Source: Pseudomonadota bacterium
GTDB lineage: Bacteria > Pseudomonadota > Alphaproteobacteria > Rhodobacterales > Rhodobacteraceae
Assembly: GCA_018240425.1 (NCBI GenBank)
Contig: JAFEFU010000071.1
Location: 124,001-188,000, forward strand
DNA: 64,000 nucleotides
Reading direction: 5' to 3'
Shown here: one piece after another, positions 21,858-39,925 of the stretch
Position numbering within the stretch: position 1 is the stretch's first letter
Layout: each line of letters begins with the position of its first letter
Program-made: the position numbers and the translations under genes
The notes under the pieces: generated by a model
What the model was told of the DNA's origin: nothing
The model's input: only the letters and a program-made list of their open reading frames with translations
The model's database searches: none

Positions 21858-22877
21858 ATGATGAGCGTCACACCGACATTGCCCCGCCCGCCCGCAGGCC
21901 CCGCGTCCGGCCGGGCCACCCGCCGCCCGCTGCGCCGCGACCGGCTGGTGCTCGCGGGCCTTCTCCTGCTCTTCGCCCTCGGCGTCGTCGGCATCGCGCG
22001 GGCGACCGACTGGCACGACATCGCCCGGCTCTTCGCCCGCCTGTCGCTTGGCCAGGTGGCGGCGCTTCTCGCCCTGTCGGCCCTGAACTACGCCCTGCGC
22101 GGCCTGCGCTGGCATATCCTGGTGCAAAGCCTCGGCCTGCATCCCCGGCTTCTGGCCAATGTCCTGCATTTCGTCGGCGGCTTCGCGATGAGCGTGACCC
22201 CCGGCCGGGTGGGCGAACTGGTGCGGCTGCGCTGGCTGGCGCGCGACTCGGGCGTCGGGCTTGACCGCGCCGCGCCGGTGGTGGTGGGCGACCGCGCCTC
22301 GGATCTCGCGGCGCTCGCCCTCCTTCTCGCCGGGGCGCTCGGCCTTGCCACCCTGTCGATCAGCGGGGCCGTTCCCCTCACCCTCCTCGCGCTTGCCGCT
22401 GCCCTTGCCGTGACCCACCCGCGCCTGACCGCGGCGGCGGTGGCGCTTGGCCACCGGCTGACCGGCCGCCGCGCCCCCCGCCTCTTCGCCCGCCTGCGCC
22501 GGATGTCGCGCAGCCTCGACCGCTTCGCCCGCCCCGCCGTCCTGGTCCCCGCCCTTCTCTGCGGCCTGATCGGCTGGTCGGCCGAAGCCTGGGCCTTCCA
22601 CCTGCTTCTGGGCTGGTTCGGCGCGCCCACCGGCTTTGCGACCGCACTCGCCATCTTCGTCTTCGCGACGCTGGCGGGCGGGCTGACCGGCGCCCCCGGC
22701 GGCCTTGGCGGGGCCGAAGCGGCGATGATCGCGCTTCTTGCCCTTGACGGCACCCCCCTCGGCATCGCCATCGCCGCCACCGCCCTGATCCGCGCCACCA
22801 CGCTCTGGTTCGCCGTGGGCCTCGGCATCATTGCCTTCCCCTTTGCCGAACGCGCCGGCGCCACGAGGACCGGATGA
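21858..22877 (+). CDS. lysylphosphatidylglycerol synthase TM region-like (UPF0104) membrane protein
   Basis: A 339-residue polytopic protein with about eight hydrophobic segments and the UPF0104 signature LNYALRGLRWHILVQSLG, then GGFAMSVTPGRVGELVRLRWL and GGLTGAPGGLGGAEAAMIALL. Members include the membrane half of MprF and proteins thought to move lipid-linked substrates. Its TGA overlaps the ATG of the DprE1-like gene (ATGA). A role as transporter or flippase for polyprenyl-phosphoryl-arabinose is therefore plausible but inferred. ATGs at 21858 and 21861 are equivalent, and the ribosome site is weak. Confidence 0.75.
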   Translation: MMSVTPTLPRPPAGPASGRATRRPLRRDRLVLAGLLLLFALGVVGIARATDWHDIARLFARLSLGQVAALLALSALNYALRGLRWHILVQSLGLHPRLLANVLHFVGGFAMSVTPGRVGELVRLRWLARDSGVGLDRAAPVVVGDRASDLAALALLLAGALGLATLSISGAVPLTLLALAAALAVTHPRLTAAAVALGHRLTGRRAPRLFARLRRMSRSLDRFARPAVLVPALLCGLIGWSAEAWAFHLLLGWFGAPTGFATALAIFVFATLAGGLTGAPGGLGGAEAAMIALLALDGTPLGIAIAATALIRATTLWFAVGLGIIAFPFAERAGATRTG

Positions 22878-24187
22878 CCTGGAATTCCACCACCTATTCC
22901 GGCTGGGGCCGGGCACTGAAGGCCAAGGGCGAAATCGCCCGCCCCGAACGCCAGGGCGCGCTCGAGGCCTGCCTCTCCGACGGACTTCTGCCCGCCTGCG
23001 GGATGCGGCGCAGCTACGGCGACGCGGCGCTGAACGACGGCGGCCGGCTCATCGACATGACCCGGCTTGACCGGATGCTGGGCTTCGATCCCGAGACCGG
23101 CATCCTCGAGGTCGAGGCCGGCGCCCGCATCGGCGACATCGCCGCCGCCTTCGCGCCCCGCGGCTGGCTGCCCGCCGTCATGCCCGGCACCGGCCTTGCC
23201 ACCGTCGGCGGCTGCATCGCCCAGGACGTGCACGGCAAGAACCACCACCATATCGGCTCCTTCTGCCAGCATGTCGTCGCGCTGCGGCTGCGGCAGGCCA
23301 AGGGCACGGTCGCGGTCAGCCCGGACAAGACCCCCGACCTCTTCCGCGCCACCGCTGGCGGTCTCGGACAGACCGGGATCATCCTGTCGGCCCGCATCCG
23401 CCTGATCCCCTGCAAGGGCGACGTGATGGTGGTGACCGAACGGCGCATCGAGGACTGGGACCAGCACCTGGCACTTCTCGACGCCTCGACCGCCACCTAT
23501 ACCGTCGGCTGGATCGACGCGACCGCGACCGGCGCCGCGCTCGGGCGCGGCATCCTCGAGGAAGGCGAAACCGGCGCGGGCCTCGTGCCGAAACGGGTCA
23601 GCACCCGCCGCGTGCCGCTCGACGCGCCCGCCTTCGCGCTCTCCGGCCCGGTGGTCCGCGCCTTCAACGCCGCCTACTACCGCCGGGTGCCCGCCCGGGG
23701 CCGCACCGTGGTCAAGCCGATCGCCGATTTTTTCTTCCCGCTCGACAAGATCCACGACTGGAACCGCCTTTACGGCAAGCGCGGCTTTCACCAGTTCCAG
23801 TGCGTGGTGCCGCTCGCCGCCGCCCCGGCACTGCGCCAGATGCTTGAATCGGTTGCGGCATCGGGCCTCGCCTCGCCGCTCGCGGTCCTCAAGCGCATGG
23901 GGCCGGGGCGCGCGGGCTTCCTCTCCTTCCCGATGGAGGGCTACACGCTCGCCGTCGATTTCCCTAACCGCGACGAGGCCCGCGCCCTGATCGCGCGGCT
24001 TCAGGCGATGACCGCCGCGGCGGGGGGGCGGATCTATTTCGCCAAGGACAGCCTGGCGCGTGGCACCGATGCCGCCGCCATGTATCCCGAACTTGCCGAC
24101 TGGCGCGCCCAGGTGGCCAAGGCCGATCCCGGCCGCCGGCTGGCGACCGACATGGTCCGCCGCCTGAACCTGAGGAGCGAGGCATGA
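22874..24187 (+). CDS. DprE1-like FAD-dependent decaprenylphosphoryl-ribose 2'-oxidase
   Basis: A 437-residue VAO/PCMH-fold oxidase with the DprE1 pattern: MRRSYGDAALN, GTGLATVGGCIAQDVHGKNHHHIGSF around the FAD site, FFFPLDKIHDWNRLYG, GFHQFQCVVP, and a C-terminal FPMEGYTLAVDF plus GGRIYFAKD. DprE1 oxidises polyprenyl-phosphoryl-ribose at C2' to the keto intermediate, which DprE2 reduces. The gene overlaps both neighbours by ATGA, as expected for coupled partners. It is slightly shorter than the mycobacterial enzyme. Substrate identity is inferred from the whole cluster. Confidence 0.85.
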   Translation: MTWNSTTYSGWGRALKAKGEIARPERQGALEACLSDGLLPACGMRRSYGDAALNDGGRLIDMTRLDRMLGFDPETGILEVEAGARIGDIAAAFAPRGWLPAVMPGTGLATVGGCIAQDVHGKNHHHIGSFCQHVVALRLRQAKGTVAVSPDKTPDLFRATAGGLGQTGIILSARIRLIPCKGDVMVVTERRIEDWDQHLALLDASTATYTVGWIDATATGAALGRGILEEGETGAGLVPKRVSTRRVPLDAPAFALSGPVVRAFNAAYYRRVPARGRTVVKPIADFFFPLDKIHDWNRLYGKRGFHQFQCVVPLAAAPALRQMLESVAASGLASPLAVLKRMGPGRAGFLSFPMEGYTLAVDFPNRDEARALIARLQAMTAAAGGRIYFAKDSLARGTDAAAMYPELADWRAQVAKADPGRRLATDMVRRLNLRSEA

Positions 24188-24921
24188 GCGACACCTGGAT
24201 CATCCTCGGGGCCACCTCCTCGATGGCGCGCGCCTTCGCCCGCAAGGCCGCCGCCTCGGGCGCCGCCGTCCTTCTGGCGGGCCGCGACCAGCCCGACATC
24301 GCCATCCTGGCCGAGGATTGCCGCCTGCGCGGCGCGCGGCTGGCCGAGGCGCTCCCGTTCGACGCCCGCGCCCCCGAGGGGTTCGCCCCCCTGATCGACC
24401 GCCTCACGCGCGAGGAGGGCCGCCTGAACGCCGCCGTCTTCGTGGGCTCCATGCCCCCCCAGTCCGCAATCGACGCCGACCCGGCGCTGATCGACGGCAC
24501 GGTGACAGACAGCTTCACCGGCCCCGCCCGCTTCCTCCAGCTCTTCGCGCCCCTCGTCGAGGCGCGCGCCGGCGGCACCGTAGTCGGCGTCGGCTCGGTC
24601 GCGGGCGACCGCGGCCGGATCGGCAACTATGTCTACGGATCGGCCAAGGCCGGGTTCCACACCTATCTCTCCGGCCTGAGAAACCGCCTGACCCGCGCCG
24701 GCGGTCATGTGGTGACGGTCAAGCCCGGCTTCGTCGACACTTCGATGACCTGGGGCCTGCCGGGCATGTTCCTCGTGGCCTCGCCCGAGGCGGTGGCCGA
24801 CGACATCTGGAAGGCGGTGACCAAGCGGAAAAACGTGATCTACACGCCGTTCTTCTGGCGGTTCATCATGCTCATTATCCGCCATATCCCGGAATTCATC
24901 TTCAAGAAGATGAAGATCTGA
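24184..24921 (+). CDS. DprE2-like short-chain dehydrogenase
   Basis: A 245-residue SDR with the N-terminal dinucleotide loop ILGATSSMARAFA, the catalytic YVYGSAKAGF (YxxxK), and VKPGFVDTSMTWGLPG. The C-terminal IYTPFFWRFIMLIIRHIPEFIFKK is a membrane-associating amphipathic tail typical of DprE2-type reductases. It would reduce the 2'-keto product of the adjacent DprE1-like enzyme to polyprenyl-phosphoryl-D-arabinose with NAD(P)H. Its ATG overlaps the DprE1-like stop (ATGA). Confidence 0.83.
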   Translation: MSDTWIILGATSSMARAFARKAAASGAAVLLAGRDQPDIAILAEDCRLRGARLAEALPFDARAPEGFAPLIDRLTREEGRLNAAVFVGSMPPQSAIDADPALIDGTVTDSFTGPARFLQLFAPLVEARAGGTVVGVGSVAGDRGRIGNYVYGSAKAGFHTYLSGLRNRLTRAGGHVVTVKPGFVDTSMTWGLPGMFLVASPEAVADDIWKAVTKRKNVIYTPFFWRFIMLIIRHIPEFIFKKMKI

Positions 24922-24933
24922 CGGATCCGTCGC

Positions 24934-24992
24934 CCCTTCACTCTGGTCCAGATATCCGCGGGGGAGCGCGAGCGGGCGCAGCGCCCCTCGCC
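24934..24992 (+). repeat. dispersed intergenic terminator-like element, copy C
   Basis: CCCTTCACTCTGGTCCAGATATC is followed by GGGGGAGCGC and the hairpin-forming GAGCGGGCGCAGCGCCCCTC. It starts 13 bases after the DprE2-like stop and separates it from the convergent HAD-UbiA gene. Confidence 0.65.
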
Positions 24993-24997
24993 TTTCC

Positions 24998-26431
24998 CTA
25001 CCCCCCGAACCACTGCGACCACAGCCCCGCCGCCCAGAACATCAGGCTGAGGATGATCATCAGAAGCCCGATGCCGAACTTGTCGCGCATCGCGAAGACG
25101 ATCGGGTCGTAGTCCTGCTTGCCGAACCAGCCCAGAAGCACCATGCGGATCAGCCACAGCGCCATCGGCACCATCGCCACCCACAGGATCCAGGTGGTCG
25201 GATAAAGCTCGTGCCCCTGCTCGCTGACCGAATAGAGGAAGAAGATCACCAGCGCCCCGACCGTGCCCAGGCAGGCGACGTTCAGAAGGTCGCCCCGGTC
25301 CGGCCGCCCGTAGCCCCGGCCCGGCAAGGGTTCGTCCGATGTGGCCAGCGTCAGCTCGGTCAGCCGCTTGACGCAGCCAAGCGTGATGAAGATCGGGAAG
25401 ATGAAGATCAGCATGTAGATCGAGACAAAGACCTGCGCCGCCGCAGCGCCCGCCACCACGCGGATCGTGTAAAGGCCCGCGAGCGTCGCCACGTCCACCC
25501 ACCGCATCCGCTTCAGCCGCAGCGAATAGGCGAGCGACGTGACCATGTAGAGCAGAACGACCCCCAGGAAGGCGGCGTTCAGTGACAGCGCGATGCCAAG
25601 CGCCGCCAGCGCGCACAGGACGAACACCGCCATCCCGGTCAGGATCGGCACCTGCCCCGAGGCGAAGGGGCGGTTGCGCTTGGTCGGGTGCAGCCGGTCG
25701 GCCTCGAGATCGAGCAGGTCGTTGACGACATAGATCGACGAGGCCGCCAGCGAAAAGGCCACCATCGCCCAGAGGATCGGCACCAGCGTCGCCAGGTCGA
25801 AGCGGTGGGCGGCGATCATCGGCAGGATCAGAAGGACGTTCTTGACCCATTGGTGCGGGCGCAGCGCCTTGAGGATCGCCTGCGGACGCACCGGGTTTTC
25901 CAGCTCGACCACATTGTGCCCGCCCGCCGCCAGCTCGCGCGCCGAGGCGGGATGGCCGACGACCAGGGCATTGTCGGCACGCTCCCACACCGCCATGTCC
26001 ACCCTGCCGTTGCCGGCATAGTCAAAGCCCTTTTCGCCGAAGGCCTCGACCAGCGCCGCCGCCTTGGCCTTCCCGGTCAGGTTGGTGCGCCCGTCCGAGG
26101 CGAAGACCCGGTCCGAAAGGCCGTAGTCGCTGGCCAGGCGCCGCACGAGGCCCCCGTCCGAGCCCGAGGCAAGGATGACCTCGCGCCCCGCCACCCGGCT
26201 TTGCAGCGCAAGGTCGGCGACCTCGGGGTTGACGGGCAGCAGGTCGGTCCTGATCCCGGCGATGCGGGCAAGTCCTTCCTTCAGCGAGGCCCGGTGCCCG
26301 AGGCTGGCGAAACAGCAGCGGATCGTGGCCAGGGGATCGCGCCCGAGGCCCGCCCAGAAACACTCCCACAGCATGTCGGTCTTGAGAAACGTCCCGTCCA
26401 CGTCGAGAACCAGCGGCTTGACCATGCTCAT
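24998..26431 (-). CDS. HAD phosphatase-UbiA prenyltransferase fusion (polyprenyl-phosphoryl-ribose synthesis)
   Basis: A 477-residue two-domain protein. Residues 1-185 are a HAD-type phosphatase (LDVDGT with D10 and D12, ASGSDGG, then NGRVDMAVW). Residues 195-477 are a UbiA-superfamily membrane domain with PHQWVKN, the Asp-rich NDLLDLEADRLHPTKRNRP and a second YSLRLKRMRWVDV segment. This matches the decaprenyl-phosphate phosphoribosyltransferase group (mycobacterial Rv3806c, NoeC-like) and not quinone or haem prenyltransferases. The fusion could both make 5-phosphoribosyl-polyprenyl phosphate and remove the 5-phosphate. Its ATG overlaps the stop of the upstream transglycosylase gene. Confidence 0.85.
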   Translation of the reverse strand: MSMVKPLVLDVDGTFLKTDMLWECFWAGLGRDPLATIRCCFASLGHRASLKEGLARIAGIRTDLLPVNPEVADLALQSRVAGREVILASGSDGGLVRRLASDYGLSDRVFASDGRTNLTGKAKAAALVEAFGEKGFDYAGNGRVDMAVWERADNALVVGHPASARELAAGGHNVVELENPVRPQAILKALRPHQWVKNVLLILPMIAAHRFDLATLVPILWAMVAFSLAASSIYVVNDLLDLEADRLHPTKRNRPFASGQVPILTGMAVFVLCALAALGIALSLNAAFLGVVLLYMVTSLAYSLRLKRMRWVDVATLAGLYTIRVVAGAAAAQVFVSIYMLIFIFPIFITLGCVKRLTELTLATSDEPLPGRGYGRPDRGDLLNVACLGTVGALVIFFLYSVSEQGHELYPTTWILWVAMVPMALWLIRMVLLGWFGKQDYDPIVFAMRDKFGIGLLMIILSLMFWAAGLWSQWFGG

Positions 26432-27309
26432 AGGGCCTGCCCCGGCGCCGTGAACACGCAGCCGTCAGTCACAAGCTCGGGCGGGGTCATGCACAGGCTG
26501 CGCGCCACCGCCCAGGCCGCCAGCACCTTGGGCACATAGTCGCGCGTCTCGGCGATCGGCGGAACGCCTCGGTTGTCCTTCACCGTGTTCTCTCCGGAAT
26601 TGTAGGCCGCCAGCACCATGACGGGATCGTGGTCGAACTCTTTCATCAGCCAGTCCAGGTAGGCCACCCCGCCGCGGATGTTCTGCATCGGATCGCGGCT
26701 GTCGGCGACGCCGAACCGGTCGGCGGTGGCCGGGATCAGCTGCATCAGCCCGACCGCGCCCGCGTGCGAAACCGCCTGGGGGTTGCCGGCGCTTTCGATG
26801 CTGATGACCGCGAGGACCAGCGCCGGCGACACGTCGGTTCCGACCGTCGCCTGCAATATTTCCGCACCGTGGGTCGCGGCGATATCCTGAAGCGCCTGCA
26901 TCCGGGGCGCGGCGACCGTGGCTCCGCCCGGCCCCTTGGTCAGGCTGTCGAGCGCCAGCGAGAAACGCCCGGCTGAATCGCCGAGGTTGGGCGAGACCAG
27001 CGACCAGTACCAGTCATAGGCACCCGGCTTCAGCGCCGGCAGGCCTGTGTCGGGGAGCGGCAGGGGCGCCGTCGGGGCCGAAGCGGCCTCGGCCTTCGGC
27101 ACCTCCGGCCAGGGCGGCATCGAGGCCAGCCGCGCCGCCTGCTCGGCCGGGTCGATCTGCACGAGGATGCGCTTTTGCGTTCCCGGCTTGGGGGCCGCGA
27201 TCCGCTTGAAGGTAAAGGGTTCCTCGCCGCCGGACGCAGGAACGCCCGCGGCCGGGACCGCGCCCAAAAGGGAAAGGGCGGTCACTGCCCAAAATGCCGC
27301 GCGTATCAT
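26428..27309 (-). CDS. lytic murein transglycosylase (SLT-type)
   Basis: A 293-residue secreted protein with an N-terminal signal sequence (MIRAAFWAVTALSLLG...). A linker of about 120 residues follows. The SLT domain shows ISIESAGNPQAVSHAGAVGLMQLIP, with the catalytic Glu in SIESAG, then IRGGVAYLDWLMKEFDHD and LAAYNSGENTV. It cleaves peptidoglycan glycan strands to anhydro-muropeptides. It is coupled to the HAD-UbiA gene by ATGA and divergent from the first pilin gene. Transglycosylases often open the wall for trans-envelope machines, so a link with the adjacent Tad pilus is possible. The start at 27309 is set by the signal peptide. Confidence 0.9.
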   Translation of the reverse strand: MIRAAFWAVTALSLLGAVPAAGVPASGGEEPFTFKRIAAPKPGTQKRILVQIDPAEQAARLASMPPWPEVPKAEAASAPTAPLPLPDTGLPALKPGAYDWYWSLVSPNLGDSAGRFSLALDSLTKGPGGATVAAPRMQALQDIAATHGAEILQATVGTDVSPALVLAVISIESAGNPQAVSHAGAVGLMQLIPATADRFGVADSRDPMQNIRGGVAYLDWLMKEFDHDPVMVLAAYNSGENTVKDNRGVPPIAETRDYVPKVLAAWAVARSLCMTPPELVTDGCVFTAPGQAL

Positions 27310-27617: not shown

Positions 27618-27812
27618 ATGAAATTCTTCAAGCTCTACAAGAAGTTCAATGACGAGGAAGACGGCGCCGTGACCGTGGACTGGGTCGTGCTGACCGCCGC
27701 CGTCGTCGGCCTGGGCGTTGCCGCGCTGGCCGCGGTCAAGGGCGGTGTCGGCAAGCTGTCGAGCACCATCAACAACTACCTGTCGAGCCAGACCATCGCC
27801 TCGACCTTCTGA
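27618..27812 (+). CDS. flp: Flp-family type IVb pilin (copy 1)
   Basis: A 64-residue prepilin: a short basic/acidic leader (residues 1-16, ending EEDG), predicted cleavage after G16, then the hydrophobic assembly helix AVTVDWVVLTAAVVGLG and a C-terminal STF. Positions 5 and 6 of the mature protein are Asp and Trp, where classical Flp pilins have Glu and Tyr. The product is the major Tad pilus subunit, processed by the CpaA peptidase encoded downstream. GGAGA lies before the ATG. The gene has its own leader element and terminator, so it can be transcribed alone. The protein is identical to copy 2. Confidence 0.93.
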   Translation: MKFFKLYKKFNDEEDGAVTVDWVVLTAAVVGLGVAALAAVKGGVGKLSSTINNYLSSQTIASTF

Positions 27813-27837
27813 TAGCCGATATTCCGCCGGGTATCCT

Positions 27838-27863
27838 GAGCCGCGCCCCCTGGGGCGCGGTTC
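27838..27863 (+). terminator. terminator of pilin copy 1
   Basis: Hairpin CCGCGCCCC/GGGGCGCGG followed by TTCTGCCTTTT, 25 bases after the stop. Confidence 0.75.
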
Positions 27864-27993
27864 TGCCTTTTCTGCGGGCGCAGGTTCCGGCCAGTCACCC
27901 GGGTGCGGACTCCCCCGGCCGCCGGGCGTCCAGGGAGCCGGAAACGCGTTGTTTCGCACTTTTGCCATTTCGCACGAACTCGGTCGCCTGGCC

Positions 27994-28103: not shown

Positions 28104-28298
28104 ATGAAATTCTTCAAGCTCTACAAGAAGTTCAATGACGAGGAAGACGGCGCCGTGACCGTGGACTGGGTCGTGCTGACCGCCGCCGTCGTCGGCCTGG
28201 GCGTCGCGGCGCTGGCCGCCGTCAAGGGCGGTGTCGGCAAGCTGTCGAGCACCATCAACAACTACCTGTCCAGCCAGACCATCGCCTCGACCTTCTGA
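28104..28298 (+). CDS. flp: Flp-family type IVb pilin (copy 2)
   Basis: This 64-residue prepilin is identical in protein to copy 1, with only a few silent changes in the DNA, so the duplication is recent or kept uniform by gene conversion. It has the same cleavage site after G16 and the same D5/W6 variant. AAAGGAA precedes the ATG. The frame is open further upstream, but the leader length of the other copies fixes the start at 28104. It has an independent leader element and terminator. Confidence 0.93.
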   Translation: MKFFKLYKKFNDEEDGAVTVDWVVLTAAVVGLGVAALAAVKGGVGKLSSTINNYLSSQTIASTF

Positions 28299-28322
28299 TC
28301 CGGCCCGGACATTCCGACCCAG

Positions 28323-28579: not shown

Positions 28580-28774
28580 ATGAAGTTCTTCAAACTCTAC
28601 AAGAAATTCAATGATGAAGAAGACGGCGCCGTGACCGTGGACTGGGTCGTGCTGACCGCCGCCGTCGTCGGCCTCGGCGTTGCCGCGCTGGCCGCGGTTC
28701 GCGGTGGCGTCGGCAAGCTGTCGAGCACCATCAACAACTACCTGTCGAGCCAGACCATCGCCTCGACCTTCTGA
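28580..28774 (+). CDS. flp: Flp-family type IVb pilin (copy 3)
   Basis: A 64-residue prepilin differing from copies 1 and 2 by one residue (Lys to Arg in AAVRGGVG). It has the same predicted cleavage after G16 and the same C-terminal STF. The leader DNA from about 28494 resembles that of copy 1 (CCCATGCCGCGA...GGTGACGGC), showing that the duplication included the upstream region. GGAGA precedes the ATG. Confidence 0.93.
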   Translation: MKFFKLYKKFNDEEDGAVTVDWVVLTAAVVGLGVAALAAVRGGVGKLSSTINNYLSSQTIASTF

Positions 28775-28985: not shown

Positions 28986-29180
28986 ATGAAACATTTCAAG
29001 CGACTCAGGACTTTCCGATCCGAGGAAGACGGCGCCGTGACCGTGGACTGGGTGGTGCTGACCGCCGCCGTCGTCGGCCTGGGCGTTGCCGCCCTCGGTG
29101 CGATCAAGGGCGGGGTCGGCAGCCTCTCGTCCCTCATCAACAACTACCTCTCGAGCCAGACGATCTCGTCGACCTTCTGA
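28986..29180 (+). CDS. flp: Flp-family type IVb pilin (copy 4, diverged)
   Basis: A 64-residue prepilin with a different, more basic leader (MKHFKRLRTFRSEEDG) but the same helix AVTVDWVVLTAAVVGLG. Its C-terminal half differs (GAIKGGVGSLSSLINNY...ISSTF). Cleavage is predicted after G16. The divergence confined to the leader and tail suggests either an older duplicate or a distinct minor subunit. The start at 28986 is fixed by alignment with the other copies. Confidence 0.9.
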   Translation: MKHFKRLRTFRSEEDGAVTVDWVVLTAAVVGLGVAALGAIKGGVGSLSSLINNYLSSQTISSTF

Positions 29181-29380: not shown

Positions 29381-29578
29381 ATGATGAATTTCGCAAAAAG
29401 AGTTCGGGCTTTCCGCCGCGCCGAGGATGGTGCGGTCACTGTCGACTGGGTGGTCCTGACCGCCAGCGTGATCGGGCTGGTCCTGATCGCGATGCAGGGC
29501 CTGCGCGGCAACATGACCTCGGTCGGCCAGAAGGCCGGCGACTTCCTCAGCAGCAACACGATCAACACCAGCTTCTGA
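29381..29578 (+). CDS. flp: Flp-family pilin-like protein (copy 5, most diverged)
   Basis: A 65-residue prepilin with leader MMNFAKRVRAFRRAEDG, the conserved AVTVDWVVLTA, and then a different helix and tail (SVIGLVLIAMQGLRGN...INTSF). It keeps the D5/W6 variant and the processing glycine. It lacks the GGVG segment shared by copies 1-4, so it may be a minor pilin with another role. ATGs at 29381 and 29384 are both possible. It is the last pilin before cpaB and is followed by a long perfect hairpin. Confidence 0.88.
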   Translation: MMNFAKRVRAFRRAEDGAVTVDWVVLTASVIGLVLIAMQGLRGNMTSVGQKAGDFLSSNTINTSF

Positions 29579-29809: not shown

Positions 29810-30682
29810 ATGCGTATGGTTTTCGGACTGGTTCTGGTGGTCGGGCTGGCCCTGGCGGGCTTTGCCGTCTACATGGCCCAGAATTACATGGCAGACATTC
29901 AGGCGCAGCGCGACCAGCTCCTGGCCGCCCAGGCCAAGGCCCCGCAGCTCGTCGATGTGGTCGTCGCCAAGAAGGCGCTGAAGTACGGCGACAAGTTCAC
30001 CCGCGGCGATCTCGACATCGTCAAGTGGCAGGCCGACAAGGTGCCCGAAGGCGCCTTTCACCAGATGGTCGCGGCCCAGGGCGGCGATCCGGCCAATCCG
30101 CCGGTCTTCTTCGAGGGAGAGACCCGCCCGCGCGCCGTCCTGCGCAGCGTCGAGGTGTTCGAGCCGATCCTCGCCAAGAAGATCACCGATCCCGGCGTCG
30201 ATGCCGGCATCAATGCCAACCTGACGCCGGGGATGCGGGCGCTGGCGATCAACGTCGATGTCTCGACCGGGGTCTCGGGCTTCCTGCGGCCCGGCGACAA
30301 GGTGGATGTCTATTGGAGCGGCAACGCCAACGGCCGCGACGTGACCAAGCTGATCCAGGCCTCGGTCCGGCTGATCGCCATCGACCAGAGCGCCGACGCC
30401 GACCGCACCGACGCCACCCAGATCGCCCGCACCGTCACCGTCGAGGCAACGTCCGAGCAGGTCGCGGCGCTGGCGCTGGCCCAGTCGTCGGGGCGCCTGA
30501 CGCTGGCGCTGGTCGGCGCGGGCGACACCGCCAAGACCGGCTCGGTCGAGATCGACCGCAACACGCTTCTGGGCATCGCCGACGCGCCGGCGCCGGTCGA
30601 GGCCGCCGCACCCAAGGTCTGCACCATCAAGACCAACAAGGGCGGCGAGACCGTCGAGACCCAGATCCCCTGCACCAACTGA
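29810..30682 (+). CDS. cpaB: Tad pilus assembly protein CpaB (RcpC)
   Basis: A 290-residue protein with an N-terminal TM anchor (about residues 4-24). A SAF-type domain starts at VDVVVAKKALKYGDKFTRGDL, and the CpaB domain has RALAINVDVSTGVSGFLRPGDKVDVYWSG. CpaB sits in the periplasm and is thought to interact with the CpaC secretin during pore assembly. It is the first gene of the assembly block. AAGGGA lies a little upstream of the ATG. Confidence 0.93.
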   Translation: MRMVFGLVLVVGLALAGFAVYMAQNYMADIQAQRDQLLAAQAKAPQLVDVVVAKKALKYGDKFTRGDLDIVKWQADKVPEGAFHQMVAAQGGDPANPPVFFEGETRPRAVLRSVEVFEPILAKKITDPGVDAGINANLTPGMRALAINVDVSTGVSGFLRPGDKVDVYWSGNANGRDVTKLIQASVRLIAIDQSADADRTDATQIARTVTVEATSEQVAALALAQSSGRLTLALVGAGDTAKTGSVEIDRNTLLGIADAPAPVEAAAPKVCTIKTNKGGETVETQIPCTN

Positions 30683-30687
30683 CCACT

Positions 30688-30717
30688 TTCGCGCCTCGCC
30701 GCGTTGCGGCGGGGCGC
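30688..30717 (+). terminator. hairpin between cpaB and cpaC
   Basis: GCGCCtCGCCGC and GCGGCGgGGCGC can pair around GTT a few bases after the cpaB stop, without a T tract. It is probably an attenuating or RNA-stabilising structure and not a full terminator. Confidence 0.4.
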
Positions 30718-30894
30718 ACCCGATCTGGTGGTCGGACCGCGCCGCGGCAACTACTAATCCCCAGTGTTGCGGCGAACCCACATAAGAGTCGGCCAGCAAC
30801 CATCTGATTCTTGCAAAAAAACCACCACTCGCGCATTCTTGCGCAAATATGGGCGAAAAGACCCGTCACAACGTGATCCGAGAGGCAGGTCACA

Positions 30895-32301
30895 ATGAAC
30901 ACCGTAAAGATTCTCGCAGCCGGTCTGATTGGCGTGCAGGTCGCCTTCGCGGCACTGCCGGTTCAGGCCGAAACGCTGAAGGTCGTGCAGGGCTCGGCAA
31001 CCAACGTCCTCGCCGTGCCGATGAACCGGGCGGTGGTCGTGCAGAGCGACCAGCCCTTCGCCGAGCTTTCGATCGCAAACCCCGGCATCGCCGACATCTC
31101 GACCCTGTCGGACAAGTCGATCTACGTGCTGGGCAAGGCGCCGGGGCGCACGACGCTGACGCTTCTCGGCCCCGAGGGCAAGCTCATCACCAACGTCGAT
31201 GTGCAGGTCAGCCTTGATGTCGCCGAATTCAAGGAGCGGCTGAAGGAGATCCTGCCCAACGAGAACATCGAGGTCCGCTCGGCCAACGACGGGATCGTCC
31301 TGTCGGGCACCGTGTCGTCGATCGTGTCGCTCGACAAGGCACTGGATCTCGCCAACCGCTATGCGCCGCAGAAAGTGTCGAACCTGATGGGCGTCGGCGG
31401 GGTGCAGCAGGTCATGCTGCAGGTCCGCTTCGCCGAGATGCAGCGCTCGGTAACGAAAAGCCTGAGCGCCAGCCTTGGCGTCCACACCACCGGCACCGGC
31501 GGCACCAACGTCGAGGGCCTCTCGGGCTCGAACGCGAACGGCGCGGTCAGCGTCGGGACCGGCGGCGGCTTCGCCACTCAGAAGACCGGCGCGCTCGGCC
31601 TTGGCTTCACGATGGGCAACGTCCAGCTGGGCGTCCTCCTCGAAGCCCTGGAAAGCAAGGGCCTCGTGCGCACTCTGGCCGAACCGAACCTGACCGCGCT
31701 GTCGGGGCAGGAGGCGAAATTCCTGGCCGGGGGCGAATATCCGATCCCGGTGGCTTCGGGCAACAACAACAACTCGATCACCATCCAGTACAAGCCCTTC
31801 GGCGTCGAGCTTGCCTTCACCCCCCGAGTGGTGGACGGCAACATCATCAACCTCGAGATGAACGCCGCGGTCTCGGCCATCGACTCGACGATCACCATTC
31901 AGAACGGCGGCTTCGCAGTGAACGCCTTCAAGCGCCGCGAAACCTCGACGACCGTGGAAATGCGCGACGGCGAAAGCTTTGCCGTCGCCGGCCTTCTCCA
32001 GGACGACTTCCGCGACCTGAACGGACAGGTGCCGTGGCTGGGCGACATCCCGATCCTCGGCTCGCTGTTCCGCAGCGCCGAATATCAGCGCAACCAGTCC
32101 GAACTGGTGATCCTCATCACCCCCCACCTCGTGTCGCCGACCCGCGGCGAGGCCTTCGCCCTGCCGACCGACCGGGTCCGCCCGCCGTCCGAGGCGCAGC
32201 TGTTCCTGTTCGGCAAGACCGGCGCGACCGGCGGCAAGGGCGCGGCAGGTGAAGTGGCCAAGCAGGACTATACCAGCCCCTACGGCTATGTGATGGAGTG
32301 A
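30895..32301 (+). CDS. cpaC: Tad secretin CpaC (RcpA)
   Basis: A 468-residue outer-membrane secretin. A signal peptide ends near VQAE (residues 1-24), followed by the N-terminal pilus-secretin domain, then a BON-like domain (EFKERLKEILPNENIEVRSANDG...LSGTVSS). The C-terminal secretin domain has VMLQVRFAEMQRS, LGVLLEALESKGLVRTLAEPNL, FLAGGEYPIPV and PWLGDIPILGSLFRS. It forms the pore through which the Flp pilus leaves the cell. The OmpA lipoprotein gene follows after four bases. Confidence 0.96.
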   Translation: MNTVKILAAGLIGVQVAFAALPVQAETLKVVQGSATNVLAVPMNRAVVVQSDQPFAELSIANPGIADISTLSDKSIYVLGKAPGRTTLTLLGPEGKLITNVDVQVSLDVAEFKERLKEILPNENIEVRSANDGIVLSGTVSSIVSLDKALDLANRYAPQKVSNLMGVGGVQQVMLQVRFAEMQRSVTKSLSASLGVHTTGTGGTNVEGLSGSNANGAVSVGTGGGFATQKTGALGLGFTMGNVQLGVLLEALESKGLVRTLAEPNLTALSGQEAKFLAGGEYPIPVASGNNNNSITIQYKPFGVELAFTPRVVDGNIINLEMNAAVSAIDSTITIQNGGFAVNAFKRRETSTTVEMRDGESFAVAGLLQDDFRDLNGQVPWLGDIPILGSLFRSAEYQRNQSELVILITPHLVSPTRGEAFALPTDRVRPPSEAQLFLFGKTGATGGKGAAGEVAKQDYTSPYGYVME

Positions 32302-33045: not shown

Positions 33046-33226
33046 GATCGTCCAAACAAATCGCACAATTTCGATCTTTTGGCCGCATTCTCGCCCAGTT
33101 TGTCAGGGAATTTCGAAACTGGAAAGTAAGGCCCGGACGCTTTCGTCGCGGCCGGTTGGTTGATGTGTTTTGGGGGTGGGCAAGGCCCGCCTGCTCGCCG
33201 GGGGTATCCCGCGTGGAAAAGGACGT

Positions 33227-34480
33227 ATGGGAATGAGCAGCGTAGCAGCATTGCAGGCAGAGCCGGCACCGATCCTGGCCTGCACCATTTCGCGGGATGT
33301 CAGCAATTTCGACCTCCTGATCGAGGACATGGAGGCCGAGCTTGGCGAGAACTGGGGCGACCTCACCTTTTCGGACGCGATGGTCTTTCTCGGCCAGCCC
33401 GACGCATCCGCACTAGAGTTTGTGGCCATCGCCGTCGACAACCACGATGAAAGCGATCTGGCGCGGATTTCGGCGATCATCACCGCCGCGAAAGAGCGCG
33501 GCATCAAGGTGATCCTGATCGCCGACGAGGTCAGCCCGATCGCGCTTCACCAGCTCCTGAAATTGGGGGCGGACGGGTTCGTGCCCTACCCGCTGCCCGA
33601 ACAGGCGCTGCACGAGGCGATCGAACGTCTGCACCAGGCGCAGATGCCCGACACCACCGCGCCCGGGGTCCATGCCCCGAACTTCAAGGGCAAGGGCGAC
33701 CGCGACGGGGTGATTCTCCCCGTGCACGGACTGGTCGGCGGCGCCGGCGCCACGACCTTTGCCGTCAACCTCGCCTGGGAGCTGGCGACCATCCAGAAGG
33801 ACAATCCGCCGCGCGTCTGCCTGCTGGACTTCAACTTCCAGTTCGGCTCGGTCTCGACCTATCTTGACCTGCCGCGCCGCGAGACGGTCTACGAGATGCT
33901 GTCGGACACCGCCTCGATGGACGCCGACGCCTTCCTTCAGGCGCTCCTGACCTTCAACGACCGGCTGAACGTGCTGACCGCGCCCGCCGACATGCTGCCT
34001 CTGGACATCGTGACGCCCGAGGACATCAACCGCATCCTCGACGTGGCACGGGCGAACTTCGATTTCGTCGTGATCGACATGCCGCAGACCATCGTGCAAT
34101 GGACCGAGGCGGTGCTCAGCCACGCCCACGTCTATTTCGCGCTGCTGGAACTCGACATGCGGTCGGCCCAGAACACGCTTCGCATGATCCGGGCGCTGAA
34201 GGCCGAGGAACTCCCGTTCGAGAAACTGCGCTTCATCCTGAACCGGGCGCCCAAGTTCACCGACCTGTCGGGCAAGGGCCGGGCCAAGCGGCTGGCCGAA
34301 AGCCTGGACATCACGCTGGAGTTGCAGCTTTCCGACGGCGCGCGCCAGGTCACCCAGTCCAACGACCACGGGCTGCCGCTGGCCGAGACCGCAGCCAAGA
34401 ACCCGCTGCGCAAGGAAATCGCCAAGCTCGCCAAGCAGCTTTTCGACCTGAACAAGGCCACCGAAACCGCCAAGGCCTGA
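33227..34480 (+). CDS. cpaE: Tad pilus localisation ATPase CpaE (TadZ)
   Basis: About 417 residues: an N-terminal receiver-like domain (about 15-140) and a C-terminal MinD/ParA-like domain (from about 155). The P-loop reads HGLVGGAGATTFAVN: the usual K-G-G-x-G-K-T is degenerate, with Ala at the catalytic Lys position, as in other atypical TadZ proteins. LLDFNFQFGS and VIDMPQ follow. CpaE marks the cell site of pilus assembly. AAAAGGA precedes both the ATG at 33227 and that at 33233; either may be used. It starts a new unit after the strong terminator. Confidence 0.93.
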   Translation: MGMSSVAALQAEPAPILACTISRDVSNFDLLIEDMEAELGENWGDLTFSDAMVFLGQPDASALEFVAIAVDNHDESDLARISAIITAAKERGIKVILIADEVSPIALHQLLKLGADGFVPYPLPEQALHEAIERLHQAQMPDTTAPGVHAPNFKGKGDRDGVILPVHGLVGGAGATTFAVNLAWELATIQKDNPPRVCLLDFNFQFGSVSTYLDLPRRETVYEMLSDTASMDADAFLQALLTFNDRLNVLTAPADMLPLDIVTPEDINRILDVARANFDFVVIDMPQTIVQWTEAVLSHAHVYFALLELDMRSAQNTLRMIRALKAEELPFEKLRFILNRAPKFTDLSGKGRAKRLAESLDITLELQLSDGARQVTQSNDHGLPLAETAAKNPLRKEIAKLAKQLFDLNKATETAKA

Positions 34481-34496
34481 TCCCGGGGGATAGACC

Positions 34497-35963
34497 ATGT
34501 TCTCGCGCTTCAAGAAACCGGACCAGTCCGCCGTCCGGGCCGCCGCCCCCGCCAGCACGCCCGTCCGGCCGCTGAGCGAGGTTGCCGGCCAGCCGGCCCA
34601 GCCCGCCCGTCCCACCACCGTGGCCCGCAAGCCGATGGCCGGCGGTCAGCCGCCGTCGGCGCAGGCCGTCGCCGCCGACAAGGAGAAGAAGCGCAAGGAG
34701 CGGATGGGCGAGATCAAGGTCGAGCTGCACAAGCGGCTTCTCGACAACCTGAACCTGTCAGCGCTCGAACATGCGACAGAGGCCGACCTCAAGCAGGAAA
34801 TCAGCGCCATCGCCGCCGAGGCGATGGACGAGATCGGCATGGTCCTGAACAAGGACGAGCGCGCCACCCTGAACCAGGAGCTTTATGACGAGGTGATGGG
34901 CCTCGGCCCGCTCGAGCCGCTGCTCAAGGACGAGACGGTCAACGACATCCTGGTGAACGGCCCCCAGCAGATCTTCGTCGAACGGGCGGGCAAGCTGACG
35001 CTCACCGACATCACCTTCAAGGACGAGCGCCACCTTCTGCGCATCATCGACAAGATCGTCTCGGCGGTCGGCCGGCGAGTCGATGAATCCAACCCTTACG
35101 TCGACGCCCGCCTTGCCGACGGCTCGCGCTTCAACGCGATGGTGCCGCCCGTTGCGGTCGACGGCTCGCTGGTCTCGATCCGCAAGTTCAAGAAGGAAAA
35201 GCTGGGCGTCGATGATCTGGTGCGCTTCGGCGCCTTCACCGAGGAGATGGCCGCCTACCTCCAGGCCGCCGTCGCCACCCGCCTGAACGTGATCGTCTCG
35301 GGCGGCACGGGCTCGGGCAAGACCACCACGCTCAACGCGCTCTCGTCCTTCATCGACAACCACGAGCGCATCCTGACCATCGAGGACACGGCGGAACTCC
35401 AGTTGCAGCAGACCCATGTGGGCCGGATGGAAAGCCGCCCGCCGAACGTCGAGGGCAAGGGTGCGGTGACGCAGCGCGACTGCCTTCGCAACGCGCTCAG
35501 GATGCGTCCCGACCGCATCATCGTCGGCGAAACCCGCGGCGAGGAAGTCATCGACATGCTTCAGGCGATGAACACCGGCCACGACGGCTCGATGACCACG
35601 ATCCACGCCAACTCGGCGCGCGACGGCATCTCGCGCCTGGAAAACATGGTGGCGATGGCCGGGATCGAAATGCCCTTGAAGGCTGTGCGCGCCCAGATCG
35701 CCTCGGCCGTCAACCTGATAGTGCAGGCCTCGCGCCTTCAGGACGGCTCGCGCCGCATGACCTCGATCACCGAGATCACCGGCATGGAGGGCGAAGTGAT
35801 CTCGATGCAGGAAATCTTCCGCTACGAGCGGCTGGGCATCCAGCCCGACGGCAAGATCATCGGGCGCTTCACCGCCACCGGCGTGCGCTCGGCCTTCGCC
35901 GACCGTTTCAAGCAATGGGGCTACGACCTGCCGCCCTCGATCTACGAACCCGTTGGGACATAA
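34497..35963 (+). CDS. cpaF: Tad secretion ATPase CpaF (TadA)
   Basis: A 488-residue type II/IV secretion hexameric ATPase. A Pro/Ala-rich N-terminal tail of about 55 residues precedes the N-terminal domain ([19 protein letters not shown]). The Walker A is [10 protein letters not shown] with K275. [14 protein letters not shown] is the Asp box, then [36 protein letters not shown] gives the Walker B and His box. It powers assembly, and in some systems retraction, of the Flp pilus with TadB and TadC. It follows cpaE after 16 bases. Confidence 0.97.
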
Positions 35964-35966
35964 GCC

Positions 35967-36935
35967 ATGATCATCAGCCCCACCCCGATCATCTATGGCC
36001 TGATCTTCCTGGCCGTCCTCGTGCTGGTCGAAGGCATCTACCTGGTGGCCTTCGGCAAGTCGATCTCGCTGAACAGCCGCGTCAACCGCCGGCTGGAACT
36101 GCTGGAAAAGGGTGGGCAGCGCGAAAAGGTGCTGGAGCAGCTGCGCAAGGAGGCCAGCCAGCACCTCAAGGCCTCGGGCATCCCGCTCTACTCGCTTCTC
36201 GCCAAGAAGGCGCAGATGGCCAACATCGCCTTCTCGCCCAAGGCGCTGATCGCGGTCATGGGTCTTTTGACCGTGGTGGCCTTCCTCGCGCTCAAGATCG
36301 GCACGCAGGCCGGAACCGGGGTGCAGATCGCGGTGTCGCTGCTCATGGGGGTCGGCGGCGTCTATCTGTGGGTGGCCCGAAAGGCCAAGAAGCGCCTGAC
36401 CCTGATCGAGGAACAGCTTCCCGACGCGGTCGAGCTGATGGTGCGCTCGCTGCGCGTGGGCCACCCCTTCGCCTCGGCGATCCAGATCGTCTCGCGCGAG
36501 GTGCCCGATCCCCTGGGCACCGAATTCGGCATGATCTCGGACGAGGCCGCCTATGGCCGTGACGTGACGGAATCGCTGAAGGACCTCGCCGAGCGCGTCG
36601 ACATGCAGGATCTGCGCTTCCTCGCGGTGGCGGTGACGATCCAGAGCCAGTCCGGCGGCAATCTGGCCGAGATCCTCGACGGCCTCGCCAAGGTGATCCG
36701 CGCCCGCTTCCGCCTGTTCCGCCGGGTCAAGGCCATCACCGCCGAGGCGAAATGGTCGGGCATGTTCCTGTCGGGCTTCCCGCTGGCGGTCCTTGCCGTC
36801 ATCCAGATCCTGAAGCCCGACTATTTCGACACGGTCAAGGACACTCCCGCCTTCATCCCGGCGGCACTGGTCGTCTTCACCTTCCTCGGCATCAATGTGG
36901 TGTTCATGAAGGTCATGACCAACATCAAGGTCTGA
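35967..36935 (+). CDS. tadB: Tad inner-membrane platform protein TadB
   Basis: A 322-residue GspF-family protein with an N-terminal TM helix, a second TM pair (about 90-130) and two C-terminal helices. The T2SSF domain shows QLPDAVELMVRSLRVGHPFASAIQIVSREV and VTIQSQSGGNLAEILDGLAKVIRARF. With TadC it forms the platform on which the CpaF ATPase works. It lies three bases after cpaF and nine before tadC. Confidence 0.95.
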   Translation: MIISPTPIIYGLIFLAVLVLVEGIYLVAFGKSISLNSRVNRRLELLEKGGQREKVLEQLRKEASQHLKASGIPLYSLLAKKAQMANIAFSPKALIAVMGLLTVVAFLALKIGTQAGTGVQIAVSLLMGVGGVYLWVARKAKKRLTLIEEQLPDAVELMVRSLRVGHPFASAIQIVSREVPDPLGTEFGMISDEAAYGRDVTESLKDLAERVDMQDLRFLAVAVTIQSQSGGNLAEILDGLAKVIRARFRLFRRVKAITAEAKWSGMFLSGFPLAVLAVIQILKPDYFDTVKDTPAFIPAALVVFTFLGINVVFMKVMTNIKV

Positions 36936-36944
36936 GAGGCAATA

Positions 36945-37937
36945 ATGGGTGCACTTGGCGAATTCCTGACCGACCGTTTCGGTCCGCTTGGGCCGCTCTA
37001 TGCGGTGGGCCTTCTCGGGCTACTCCTGATCCTGTCGGTCCTCCCGATCCTGATGAAAAAGCAGGACGATCCTCTGGCGCGCTTCCGCGACCAGGTGAAG
37101 CCCCAGGCCGAGGCCCGCGCCGCCAAGGGCCGCACCCCGGCCAAGCAGACGCTGCGCCAGCGCCGGGGGTCCGACAAGCTGGACAAGTTCGCCACCTTCC
37201 TCGAACCCAAGACCGAGGAAGAGATGAGCACCGCGCGCCTCAAGATGACCCGCGCCGGCTACCGCGGCCGCCACGCGGTGCGCACCTTCCACGCCATCCA
37301 GTTCACGCTCGGCCTGGCCTGCCTTCTGACGGGCGTCGCCTACGCGATCTTCGCCTCGGCCACCTCGGGCATTTCCACGACCCGGCTGATCCTCGTCGTG
37401 CTTCTGCCGGGCGGCATCGGCTATTACCTGCCCAAATACTGGGTCGAACGGCGCGTCCAGTCCCGCCAGAGCGAGATCCAGAACGGCTTTCCCGACGCTC
37501 TCGACATGCTTCTCGTGTGCGTCGAGGCCGGCCAGTCGCTGGATCAGGGCATCATCCGCGTGTCCAAGGAGCTCAGCGCCGGCTACCCCGCCCTTGCCGA
37601 GGAGTTCGAGATCGTCTCGCAGGAGGTCAAGGCCGGAAAGGACAAGACCAACGTGCTGCGCGCCTTCTCGGAGCGGGCCGGCGTGCCGGATGTCGCCTCG
37701 TTCGTGACCGTGATGATCCAGTCTCAGCAGTTCGGCACATCGATCGCCGACGCGCTGCGCGTCTATGCGTCGGAAATGCGCGACAAGCGGGTGATGCGCG
37801 CCGAAGAGGCCGCCAACAAGCTGCCGACCAAGATGACCCTGGGCACCATGATGTTCACGGTTCCGCCCCTGCTCATTATCCTTGTCGGCCCGTCCGTCTA
37901 CGATATGCTGCAACTGTTCAAGAACTTCAAAATGTAG
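36945..37937 (+). CDS. tadC: Tad inner-membrane platform protein TadC
   Basis: A 330-residue paralogue of TadB. It has an N-terminal TM helix, a central TM pair (about 115-160), and a T2SSF domain with GFPDALDMLLVCVEAGQSLDQGIIRVSKEL and VTVMIQSQQFGTSIADALRVYASEMRDKRVMRAEE. The C-terminal TM helix carries the usual GPSVYDML tail. It follows tadB directly, so the two are made together. Confidence 0.95.
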   Translation: MGALGEFLTDRFGPLGPLYAVGLLGLLLILSVLPILMKKQDDPLARFRDQVKPQAEARAAKGRTPAKQTLRQRRGSDKLDKFATFLEPKTEEEMSTARLKMTRAGYRGRHAVRTFHAIQFTLGLACLLTGVAYAIFASATSGISTTRLILVVLLPGGIGYYLPKYWVERRVQSRQSEIQNGFPDALDMLLVCVEAGQSLDQGIIRVSKELSAGYPALAEEFEIVSQEVKAGKDKTNVLRAFSERAGVPDVASFVTVMIQSQQFGTSIADALRVYASEMRDKRVMRAEEAANKLPTKMTLGTMMFTVPPLLIILVGPSVYDMLQLFKNFKM

Positions 37938-38533: not shown

Positions 38534-39391
38534 ATGCGCCACCCGTTCGTGACGATCCTGCTGGTCGCAGGGGTGATCGGCCTGTCGGCCTGTGCCCGCA
38601 ACGAGGGCGCCGAGGCCGATAAGGCCCTGAAGGACCTGGACGTCGTCGACAATGCCAACCTGAACGACGTGATGATGACGGTCAGCGACCCGGCGCAGGC
38701 CGTCGACTATTTCGCCAAGGCATCCGCGCAGAACCCCGGTCGCGTCGACCTGAAGCGCAACCTCGCCAAATCGCTGGCCCGCGCCAACCGCGCCCCCGAG
38801 GCCGCGAAGATCTGGCGCGAGGTCGCCTACAGCGCCGAAGGCACCAACGAGGACCGGATCGGCCTGACCGACGCGCTGATCCGCCAGAACGACTGGAAGG
38901 GCGCCAAGGCCGAGCTGAACACCATCCCGCCCACCTACGAGACCTATGAACGCTACCGGCTCGAGGCGATGGTCGCCGATGCCAACAAGCAGTGGAAGAA
39001 GGCCGACAGCTTCTACGAGACCGCCTTCGGGCTGACCACGAAGCCGGCGGGCATCCTGAACAACTGGGGTTACTCCAAGCTGACGCGCAGCGATTTCGCC
39101 GGGGCGGAAAAGCTGTTCACCCAGGCCCTGACCTACGACAGCACCCAGTTCACCACCAAGAACAACCTGGTGCTGGCCCGCGCCGCACAGCACAAATACG
39201 ACATGCCGATGGTGCAGATGACCCAGTCCGAACGGGCACAGCTTCTCTATACCGCGGCACTGACGGCAGTGAAGCAGGGCGATGTCGATACCGGAAAGGC
39301 GCTCTTGCAGCAGGCCATCGACACCTCGCCGCAATATTTCGAAGAGGCCGTGCGCGCGCTCCAGACGCTCGACAGCGGCGCGAAAGGCTGA
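38534..39391 (+). CDS. TPR lipoprotein of the Tad locus (second copy)
   Basis: A 285-residue lipoprotein with lipobox LSAC (C20), followed by several TPR-like units (AVDYFAKASAQNPGRVDLKRNLAKSL, WKKADSFYETAFGL, FAGAEKLFTQALTYD, GDVDTGKALLQQAID). It differs in sequence from the preceding TadD-like lipoprotein and may contact a different part of the machine. It lies 25 bases downstream of the first and three bases upstream of cpaA, in the same operon. Confidence 0.85.
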   Translation: MRHPFVTILLVAGVIGLSACARNEGAEADKALKDLDVVDNANLNDVMMTVSDPAQAVDYFAKASAQNPGRVDLKRNLAKSLARANRAPEAAKIWREVAYSAEGTNEDRIGLTDALIRQNDWKGAKAELNTIPPTYETYERYRLEAMVADANKQWKKADSFYETAFGLTTKPAGILNNWGYSKLTRSDFAGAEKLFTQALTYDSTQFTTKNNLVLARAAQHKYDMPMVQMTQSERAQLLYTAALTAVKQGDVDTGKALLQQAIDTSPQYFEEAVRALQTLDSGAKG

Positions 39392-39394
39392 TCC

Positions 39395-39925
39395 ATGCTG
39401 CACCTGACCGCCCCCCAGGCCTACCTTGCCCTCCTGATCGCGGCCCTGCCCGTCTGCGGCTGGGTCTGCTGGACCGACCTGAAGTTCATGAAGATCCCCA
39501 ACCGCGCCGTCCTCGCGCTCGGCGCAATCTTCCTTGTGGTCGGCGCCCTGACCTTCCCGCCCGTGGCCTTCGCGCTGCGCTGGATCAACCTGCCGGTGGT
39601 GCTGGCGATCGGCTTCCTTCTGAACGCCATTGCCAATGTGGGCGCGGGCGACGCCAAGTTCGCCGCCGCCGCCGCTCCCTTCTTCGCGCCGGTGCACCTG
39701 CCCTTGATCCTGCCCCTGTTCGCGGCCTTCCTTCTCGGGGCCTTCGCCGCCCACCGCATCCTGCGCGCCGTCCCCGCGGTCAGGGCGCTGACGCCCGACT
39801 GGGTGTCGTGGACGCGCAAGGACTTCCCGATGGGACTTGCCCTGGTCGGAACCTTCGTCGCCTATCTGGCGATCATGGCCTTCCCGTCACTTCACGGCGC
39901 CCTCTTCGCCTCGACCACGATGTAG
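39395..39925 (+). CDS. cpaA: prepilin peptidase CpaA (TadV)
   Basis: A 176-residue A24-family aspartic membrane peptidase that removes the Flp leader after the conserved glycine. Both catalytic aspartates are visible: D28 in WTDLKFMKIPN and D86 in GAGDAKF. It lacks the N-terminal methylase domain of PilD, as is normal for TadV. It is the last pilus gene. Its 3' end overlaps the 3' end of the convergent GT-C-like gene by 34 bases. Confidence 0.93.
   Translation: MLHLTAPQAYLALLIAALPVCGWVCWTDLKFMKIPNRAVLALGAIFLVVGALTFPPVAFALRWINLPVVLAIGFLLNAIANVGAGDAKFAAAAAPFFAPVHLPLILPLFAAFLLGAFAAHRILRAVPAVRALTPDWVSWTRKDFPMGLALVGTFVAYLAIMAFPSLHGALFASTTM

Follow-up and report, generated by a model that had tools for sequence, protein, structure and literature searches.

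The 64,000-nucleotide stretch of a Rhodobacteraceae genome analysed here (contig JAFEFU010000071.1, positions 124,001 to 188,000; hereafter, the window) contains a Tad (Flp) pilus locus that is bordered on one side by genes for a UPF0104 membrane protein, a DprE1-like flavin adenine dinucleotide (FAD) oxidase, a DprE2-like short-chain dehydrogenase/reductase (SDR) and a fusion of HAD and UbiA domains, and at its far end by a gene for a membrane protein, P0001. Together, these genes probably constitute a D-arabinofuranosylation system for the Tad pilus, similar to that of TfpW, a GT-C glycosyltransferase that attaches D-arabinofuranose (D-Araf) to type IVa pilin and thereby protects against phages (PMC12369383, PMC11841053).

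Genes for a predicted lipid-linked arabinose donor

Profile searches and Protein Data Bank (PDB) matches confirmed that all four proteins recognized in the original prediction are encoded next to the Tad genes (Table 1). The prediction had them all coupled by ATGA overlaps; by the open reading frame (ORF) reading of the window, this applies to the UPF0104, dprE1-like and dprE2-like genes, which form a single plus-strand operon, and fails for the HAD-UbiA gene, which lies on the minus strand, converges on dprE2 across a gap of 76 bp and has its own ATGA overlap with the lytic transglycosylase gene. The convergent orientation rules out a place for HAD-UbiA within the dprE1/dprE2 operon. The UPF0104 ORF has an alternative TTG start at 21852.

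The HAD-UbiA protein passed the NCBIfam cut-off for PRK08238, and the DprE1-like and DprE2-like proteins did not reach those of the respective equivalogs (500 bits for NF053785 and 250 bits for NF053786). The window DprE1 is a homologue outside the curated equivalog and is expected to catalyse the same reaction. In the PDB sequence search, the nearest solved structures for the two proteins are DprE1 and DprE2 themselves (the latter in 21gq) and that for HAD-UbiA is Rv3806c (8j8j). The similarity to Rv3806c spans the UbiA domain, placing the protein among the polyprenyl-phosphate phosphoribosyltransferases (PPPRS), and that to DprE1 is full-length, including the catalytic Lys418. The equivalent of Lys418 (K391) is kept in 54/54 DprE1 relatives, the SDR triad of DprE2 (S138/Y151/K155) in 52/52, and the Mg-binding NDxxDxxxD motif of the UbiA domain (N237/D238/D241/D245) in 39/39; the N-terminal DxDGT nucleophile motif of the HAD domain (D10/D12) is likewise kept in 39/39, the Pfam HAD match itself being below the cut-off. 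Given this conservation, a polyprenyl-phosphoryl-D-arabinofuranose donor is the expected product of the window genes; sequence homology and the conserved catalytic residues together give good support to the claim of a lipid-linked D-arabinose donor.

Cys387 of Mycobacterium tuberculosis DprE1 is the target of benzothiazinones. At this position, the window DprE1 has A360, and Ala is found in 53 of 54 relatives, so that covalent inhibition by these compounds is not expected.

Table 1. Features of the arabinose cassette and the Tad locus in window coordinates
Feature	Position	Strand	Evidence
UPF0104/PF03706 membrane protein; candidate polyprenyl-phosphate-arabinose flippase	21858..22877	+	PF03706 1.4e-42; TIGR00374 flippase-like
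DprE1-like FAD oxidase (class I)	22874..24187	+	NF053785 378 bits; PDB DprE1 E 9e-71
DprE2-like SDR reductase	24184..24921	+	NF053786 143 bits; best PDB match DprE2 in 21gq, E 1e-23
HAD-UbiA fusion; predicted phosphoribose phosphatase and polyprenyl-phosphate phosphoribosyltransferase	24998..26431	-	PRK08238 532 bits; PDB Rv3806c 8j8j E 8e-30
Lytic transglycosylase (SLT)	26428..27309	-	PF01464 1e-27
Flp-type prepilin 1; candidate acceptor	27618..27812	+	Read from sequence: ...EEDG/AVTVDWVVLTA..., Ser/Thr-rich C-terminus
Flp-type prepilin 2	28104..28298	+	Read from sequence
Flp-type prepilin 3	28580..28774	+	Read from sequence
Flp-type prepilin 4	28986..29180	+	Read from sequence
Flp-type prepilin 5, more divergent	29381..29578	+	Read from sequence
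cpaB/rcpC and cpaC secretin	29810..32301	+	PF16976 3e-26; PF00263 1e-44 with PF13629
tadZ, tadA, tadB, tadC	33170..37937	+	PF13614; PF00437 8e-69; PF19360 with PF00482; PF00482
TPR (TadD-like) protein and prepilin peptidase tadV	38534..39925	+	TPR families; PF01478 9e-10
GT-C family membrane protein P0001, 541 aa; proposed D-arabinosyltransferase	39892..41517	-	AlphaFold2 fold and phylogenetic profile

A GT-C protein that follows dprE1

The pathway had been described as complete but lacked the transferase, which had gone unnoticed; when the window was searched for membrane proteins, a candidate emerged in P0001, whose gene is convergent with tadV. P0001 matched no Pfam or NCBIfam family and no PDB sequence, and searches of 28 members of its family against Pfam and NCBIfam yielded only stray matches, the best being GT87 at E 0.02. 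An AlphaFold2 model built with 28 relatives (predicted local distance difference test, pLDDT, 92; predicted template modelling score, pTM, 0.92) produced Foldseek top matches to ArnT (9e-5), AftA and AftD. A second structural aligner ranked AftA (Z 13.4), protein O-mannosyltransferases (12.6-13.3) and ArnT (12.5) highest, followed in the lower rows by OST/AglB/PglB (10-12), AftD (10.6) and EmbB (7.7); because middling Z scores are common among helical proteins, more weight falls on the fact that nearly all of the top-ranked structures are GT-C enzymes. Furthermore, E36/D38, directly after the first transmembrane segment, and H56/D58 are invariant in 28/28 sequences, in keeping with an acidic residue in the first periplasmic loop. 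The modelling thus supports a GT-C fold for P0001, and D-arabinosyltransferase activity is proposed.

To survey the family, dprE1 was searched for in 150 genomes, one per genus. The close version, class I (at least 53% identity), is present in 45, in one of them as a partial gene at a contig edge. The GT-C gene was found in 45 of 45 class I genomes and 5 of the 105 others (45/0/5/100; Fisher p 5e-33), while the Tad secretin gene cpaC is present in 124 of the 150; the GT-C therefore tracks the arabinose pathway, not Tad as such. A draw of 396 genomes comprised 100 with both genes, 2 with class I dprE1 only, 10 with GT-C only and 284 with neither. Within it, a held-out set of about 259 genomes outside the first draw, counted from completeness, gave 59, 2, 8 and 190, respectively (p 8e-47). 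Six of the 10 genomes with GT-C only carry a second class of dprE1 instead. Kinship was controlled for with an 11-gene tree of 79 genomes, whose supported branches carry no fewer than 10 changes of dprE1 state; across 10 independent pairs, GT-C changed in the same direction in 9.7 and in the opposite direction in 0 (p 0.002), so that the link between dprE1 and GT-C survives tree correction. The dependence of the GT-C on the donor pathway is supported by these observations.

Among the best 80 GT-C relatives in named genomes, nearly all are labelled Rhodobacteraceae or Rhodobacterales, the closest to the window protein coming from Frigidibacter and Defluviimonas, and in 73 the gene lies beside tadV. 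Outside the family, 387 alphaproteobacterial genomes contained one weak match, not beside Tad genes of the window type, and plasmids contained none. That the P0001 family is a dedicated Tad-pilus D-arabinosyltransferase, almost wholly of Rhodobacteraceae in these data and fed by the DprE1/DprE2 pathway with the UPF0104 (MprF-like) protein as flippase, is a reading to which we lean.

Class I loci run upf-dprE1-dprE2, then in most cases HAD-UbiA, and continue into slt, which encodes the lytic transglycosylase, and the Tad genes. The original prediction linked the donor to the adjacent Flp pilus or another envelope glycan and named co-occurrence with Tad loci as one test; tad genes adjoin 31 of the 35 class I loci that are uncut by a contig end on that side, and the secretin is encoded in 44/45 class I genomes compared with 80/105 others (p 7e-4), so that the link to the pilus passes this test, now with a Tad-embedded GT-C that tracks dprE1. 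The same gene order recurs across the family, so the set is not a product of chance; topA, dprA and scoAB, upstream of the cassette, are conserved too and have no pilus role, and synteny alone could therefore be inherited. In 40 genomes with Tad and without class I dprE1, the Tad neighbours are usually the same (scoB, slt, flp, cpaB and others), and the cassette is absent between scoB and slt. In cassette-negative genomes, tadV is directly followed by the AAA ATPase gene that elsewhere lies beyond the GT-C gene. Both inserts are gone from an otherwise intact locus; the cassette thus behaves as a block that is either there or not, next to a Tad locus that stays in place. The lytic transglycosylase was ruled out as a member of the arabinose pathway, its gene being found beside Tad with and without the cassette alike. 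Three members of Rhodobacter (R. capsulatus, R. viridis and Rhodobacter sp. TJ_12) have the GT-C gene away from Tad, and in the first two, dprE1 is apart from Tad as well, HAD-UbiA remaining with it; the scattered parts are all kept where tested, and the association of dprE1 with GT-C is therefore independent of linkage. In a separate clade (G047/G064; loci L066, L067), HAD-UbiA has an intact UbiA half and a shortened HAD half that has lost the DxDGT motif, so another phosphatase would be needed.

The second class of dprE1 (class II; 11 of 150 genomes, 40-50% identity) belongs to an operon of HAD-UbiA, GtrA, dprE1 and dprE2, which, in the loci looked at closely, is accompanied by polysaccharide genes (Wzx-type, GT2). 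All 11 class II loci encode GtrA, which no class I locus does; conversely, UPF0104 is encoded in 41 of the 42 class I loci and in none of class II. By both family match and fold, the UPF0104 protein corresponds to the MprF-type flippase domain (PF03706): the AlphaFold2 model (pLDDT 87) has MprF proteins as all five of its best Foldseek matches. The exchange between the classes points to UPF0104 in the role that has been proposed for GtrA/Rv3789 and makes it a candidate flippase. The single GtrA of the window genome was set aside in this role, as it lies on another contig whereas UPF0104 sits in the operon. Those class II loci (L074-L084) that were examined also encode other large membrane proteins without a Pfam match (for example, L075:13024-14757 and L082:1794-3446), which may be further GT-Cs.

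Two side observations concern the Tad locus itself. Three of the five tandem Flp-type pilin genes (27618-29578) are nearly identical, the fourth is close to them and one is divergent; their C-termini are Ser/Thr-rich, and no Pfam model was matched by the two pilins scanned, prepilin 1 included. The AAA ATPase gene (41660-42970) matches no family above cut-off, adjoins GT-C or tadV in nearly all relatives and is about 80% identical among them with or without the arabinose cassette; its product is a possible Tad partner.

Proposed mechanism, acceptor and alternatives

Under the proposed mechanism, the UbiA half of HAD-UbiA would transfer 5-phosphoribose from phosphoribosyl pyrophosphate to polyprenyl phosphate and the HAD half would remove the 5-phosphate, whereupon oxidation by DprE1 and reduction by DprE2 at C2 would yield polyprenyl-phosphoryl-D-arabinofuranose. 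The UPF0104 protein, with its MprF-like fold, would flip the lipid to the periplasm, where the Tad-embedded GT-C would move D-Araf onto an acceptor from the Tad locus; Ser/Thr residues of the Flp pilins, within their exposed C-terminal half, are the likeliest targets, by analogy with TfpW and type IVa pilin. Homology and intact catalytic residues make a strong case for the predicted phosphoribosyl transfer, dephosphorylation and DprE1/DprE2 steps; for flipping, the UPF0104 fold and the replacement of GtrA point to a candidate. The pilus or its parts are the likely acceptor, judging from the locus and from co-occurrence: the GT-C gene lies beside tadV, the two inserts flank Tad, nearly all class I genomes have Tad, and TfpW provides a precedent.

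Several points weigh against this scheme. The evidence consists of genes, predicted folds and profiles. The GT-C is as similar to ArnT, which acts on lipid A, as it is to protein transferases. Tad is common, the dprE1-Tad link is only moderate, and it could partly reflect shared ancestry of one locus. Marivivens (Marivivens donghaensis, L063/L184; G108/G164) lacks Tad and HAD-UbiA and keeps dprE1, dprE2 and GT-C, apparently after a single deletion from HAD-UbiA through tadC that left upf-dprE1-dprE2 beside tadD, tadV and GT-C. A clade of three genera (G072/L048, G135/L060, G140/L051) retains dprE1, dprE2, UPF0104, GT-C and Tad in the absence of HAD-UbiA; a search of these genomes with NF008978 for a replacement phosphoribosyltransferase found nothing beyond the level in pathway-negative genomes, and some other replacement may exist. 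Four GT-C genomes in the 396-genome draw show no dprE1; in at least one of these assemblies, a contig begins at the GT-C gene. Finally, a C-terminal T[FY] ending of Flp, a motif chosen after looking, occurs in 15/34 genomes with the cassette and 3/40 without it (p 3e-4); it was dropped as proof of the acceptor at a tree-corrected p of 0.22. The Ser/Thr fraction of Flp (0.31 in cassette-positive vs 0.26 in cassette-negative genomes, p 0.015 ignoring the tree) is not counted as evidence either, although both differences lean towards the pilus.

Some of these points fit an alternative in which donor and GT-C cooperate on another envelope glycan (lipopolysaccharide, lipid A or core, or capsule) and the position in Tad is inherited synteny. 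The best Foldseek match to ArnT, the class II operons in polysaccharide loci, the conserved dprA, topA and scoAB neighbours and the retention of dprE1 and GT-C by Marivivens without Tad all agree with it, but the GT-C gene is embedded beside tadV in most of its best relatives, both inserts are gained and lost together around a fixed Tad locus, and only one of 45 class I genomes lacks the Tad secretin; we regard a non-pilus acceptor as unlikely. The same locus evidence, together with the overlap of the lytic transglycosylase and HAD-UbiA genes in the window, would accommodate a target other than the Flp subunit, namely another Tad component (pseudopilin, secretin or RcpC) or the peptidoglycan where the pilus leaves the cell. 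This is very improbable: known pilus glycosylation targets the major subunit (TfpW, TfpO; PMC11841053), and the transglycosylase gene is equally present without the cassette.

The sugar, too, could differ, if the DprE1 and DprE2 relatives yielded another 2-keto or epimer product and the final residue were ribofuranose or a further-modified pentose. Their scores below the equivalog cut-offs, and a related three-component system that adds alpha-ribofuranose without DprE (PMC11127046), leave some room for this; nevertheless, the two genes occur together, both proteins keep their catalytic residues, and the closest solved structures are those of DprE1 and DprE2, so that we consider a different sugar improbable.

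Significance and comparison with known systems

D-arabinose is best known from the tuberculosis cell wall, and D-Araf is, to our knowledge, rare outside mycobacteria. If arabinosylation of the Tad pilus is borne out, it would be without precedent for this type of pilus, and a UPF0104 protein would for the first time have a role in flipping polyprenyl-phospho-arabinose. As the GT-C is encoded in 110 of the 396 sampled Rhodobacteraceae genomes, about a quarter of them would decorate an attachment appendage with D-Araf, which would matter for how members of a major aquatic family attach to particles and algae and for their contact with phages. Two testable functions emerge, namely those of a nameless GT-C family and of UPF0104, which may do what Rv3789/GtrA, whose status as a flippase is disputed, is proposed to do elsewhere. 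Rhodobacter capsulatus, a genetic model in which the pathway is presumably non-essential, could serve for studying DprE1/DprE2 and flipping, which is hard in mycobacteria.

A literature search, with poor coverage of subscription journals, found no paper on Tad pilus arabinosylation, a P0001-type GT-C or Flp/Tad glycosylation, and glycosylation goes unmentioned in a survey of Tad loci across Rhodobacterales. Neither the donor chemistry nor pilin arabinosylation as a concept is new; the novelty lies in the Tad context, in the GT-C family and in the flippase role assigned to UPF0104. P0001 represents a GT-C family without a name, compared here with TfpW and GT136 by description.

The TfpW system of Pseudomonas (par)aeruginosa PA7/Pa5196 (PSPA7_6245-6251; PMC12369383, PMC11841053), in which pilin arabinosylation protects from pilus phages (PMC11841053), shares the lipid-linked D-Araf donor genes and a GT-C dedicated to a pilin-type filament. 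It serves a type IVa pilus; its donor genes are carried by a genomic island, apart from the pilin gene, and its phosphatase is unfused. The window, likened to it by description, has a Tad pilus, fused HAD and UbiA domains, UPF0104 and a GT-C encoded within the Tad locus. Citrobacter ORF15 makes polyprenyl-phosphoribose and then dephosphorylates it (PMC11127046); this three-component pentofuranose system (ORF15, a MATE flippase and GT136) shares an N-terminal HAD with a C-terminal UbiA-type PPPRS, a flippase and a periplasmic GT-C (GT136, ORF12, likened by description only), but adds ribofuranose side chains to O antigen, uses MATE for flipping and has no DprE1/DprE2. In Alphaproteobacteria, the noeCHOP genes of Azorhizobium (PMC2443382) are proposed for a D-arabinose precursor and act on Nod factors. 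The mycobacterial decaprenyl-phosphoryl-arabinose pathway (Rv3806c, DprE1, DprE2, Rv3789; AftA/Emb/Aft) has the same donor chemistry and provides the best sequence and fold matches of the window. Its acceptors are arabinogalactan and lipoarabinomannan, its phosphatase is unrelated to HAD, and Rv3789 is of the GtrA/SMR type; in the window, UPF0104 takes the place of Rv3789, and Ala that of Cys387 in DprE1.

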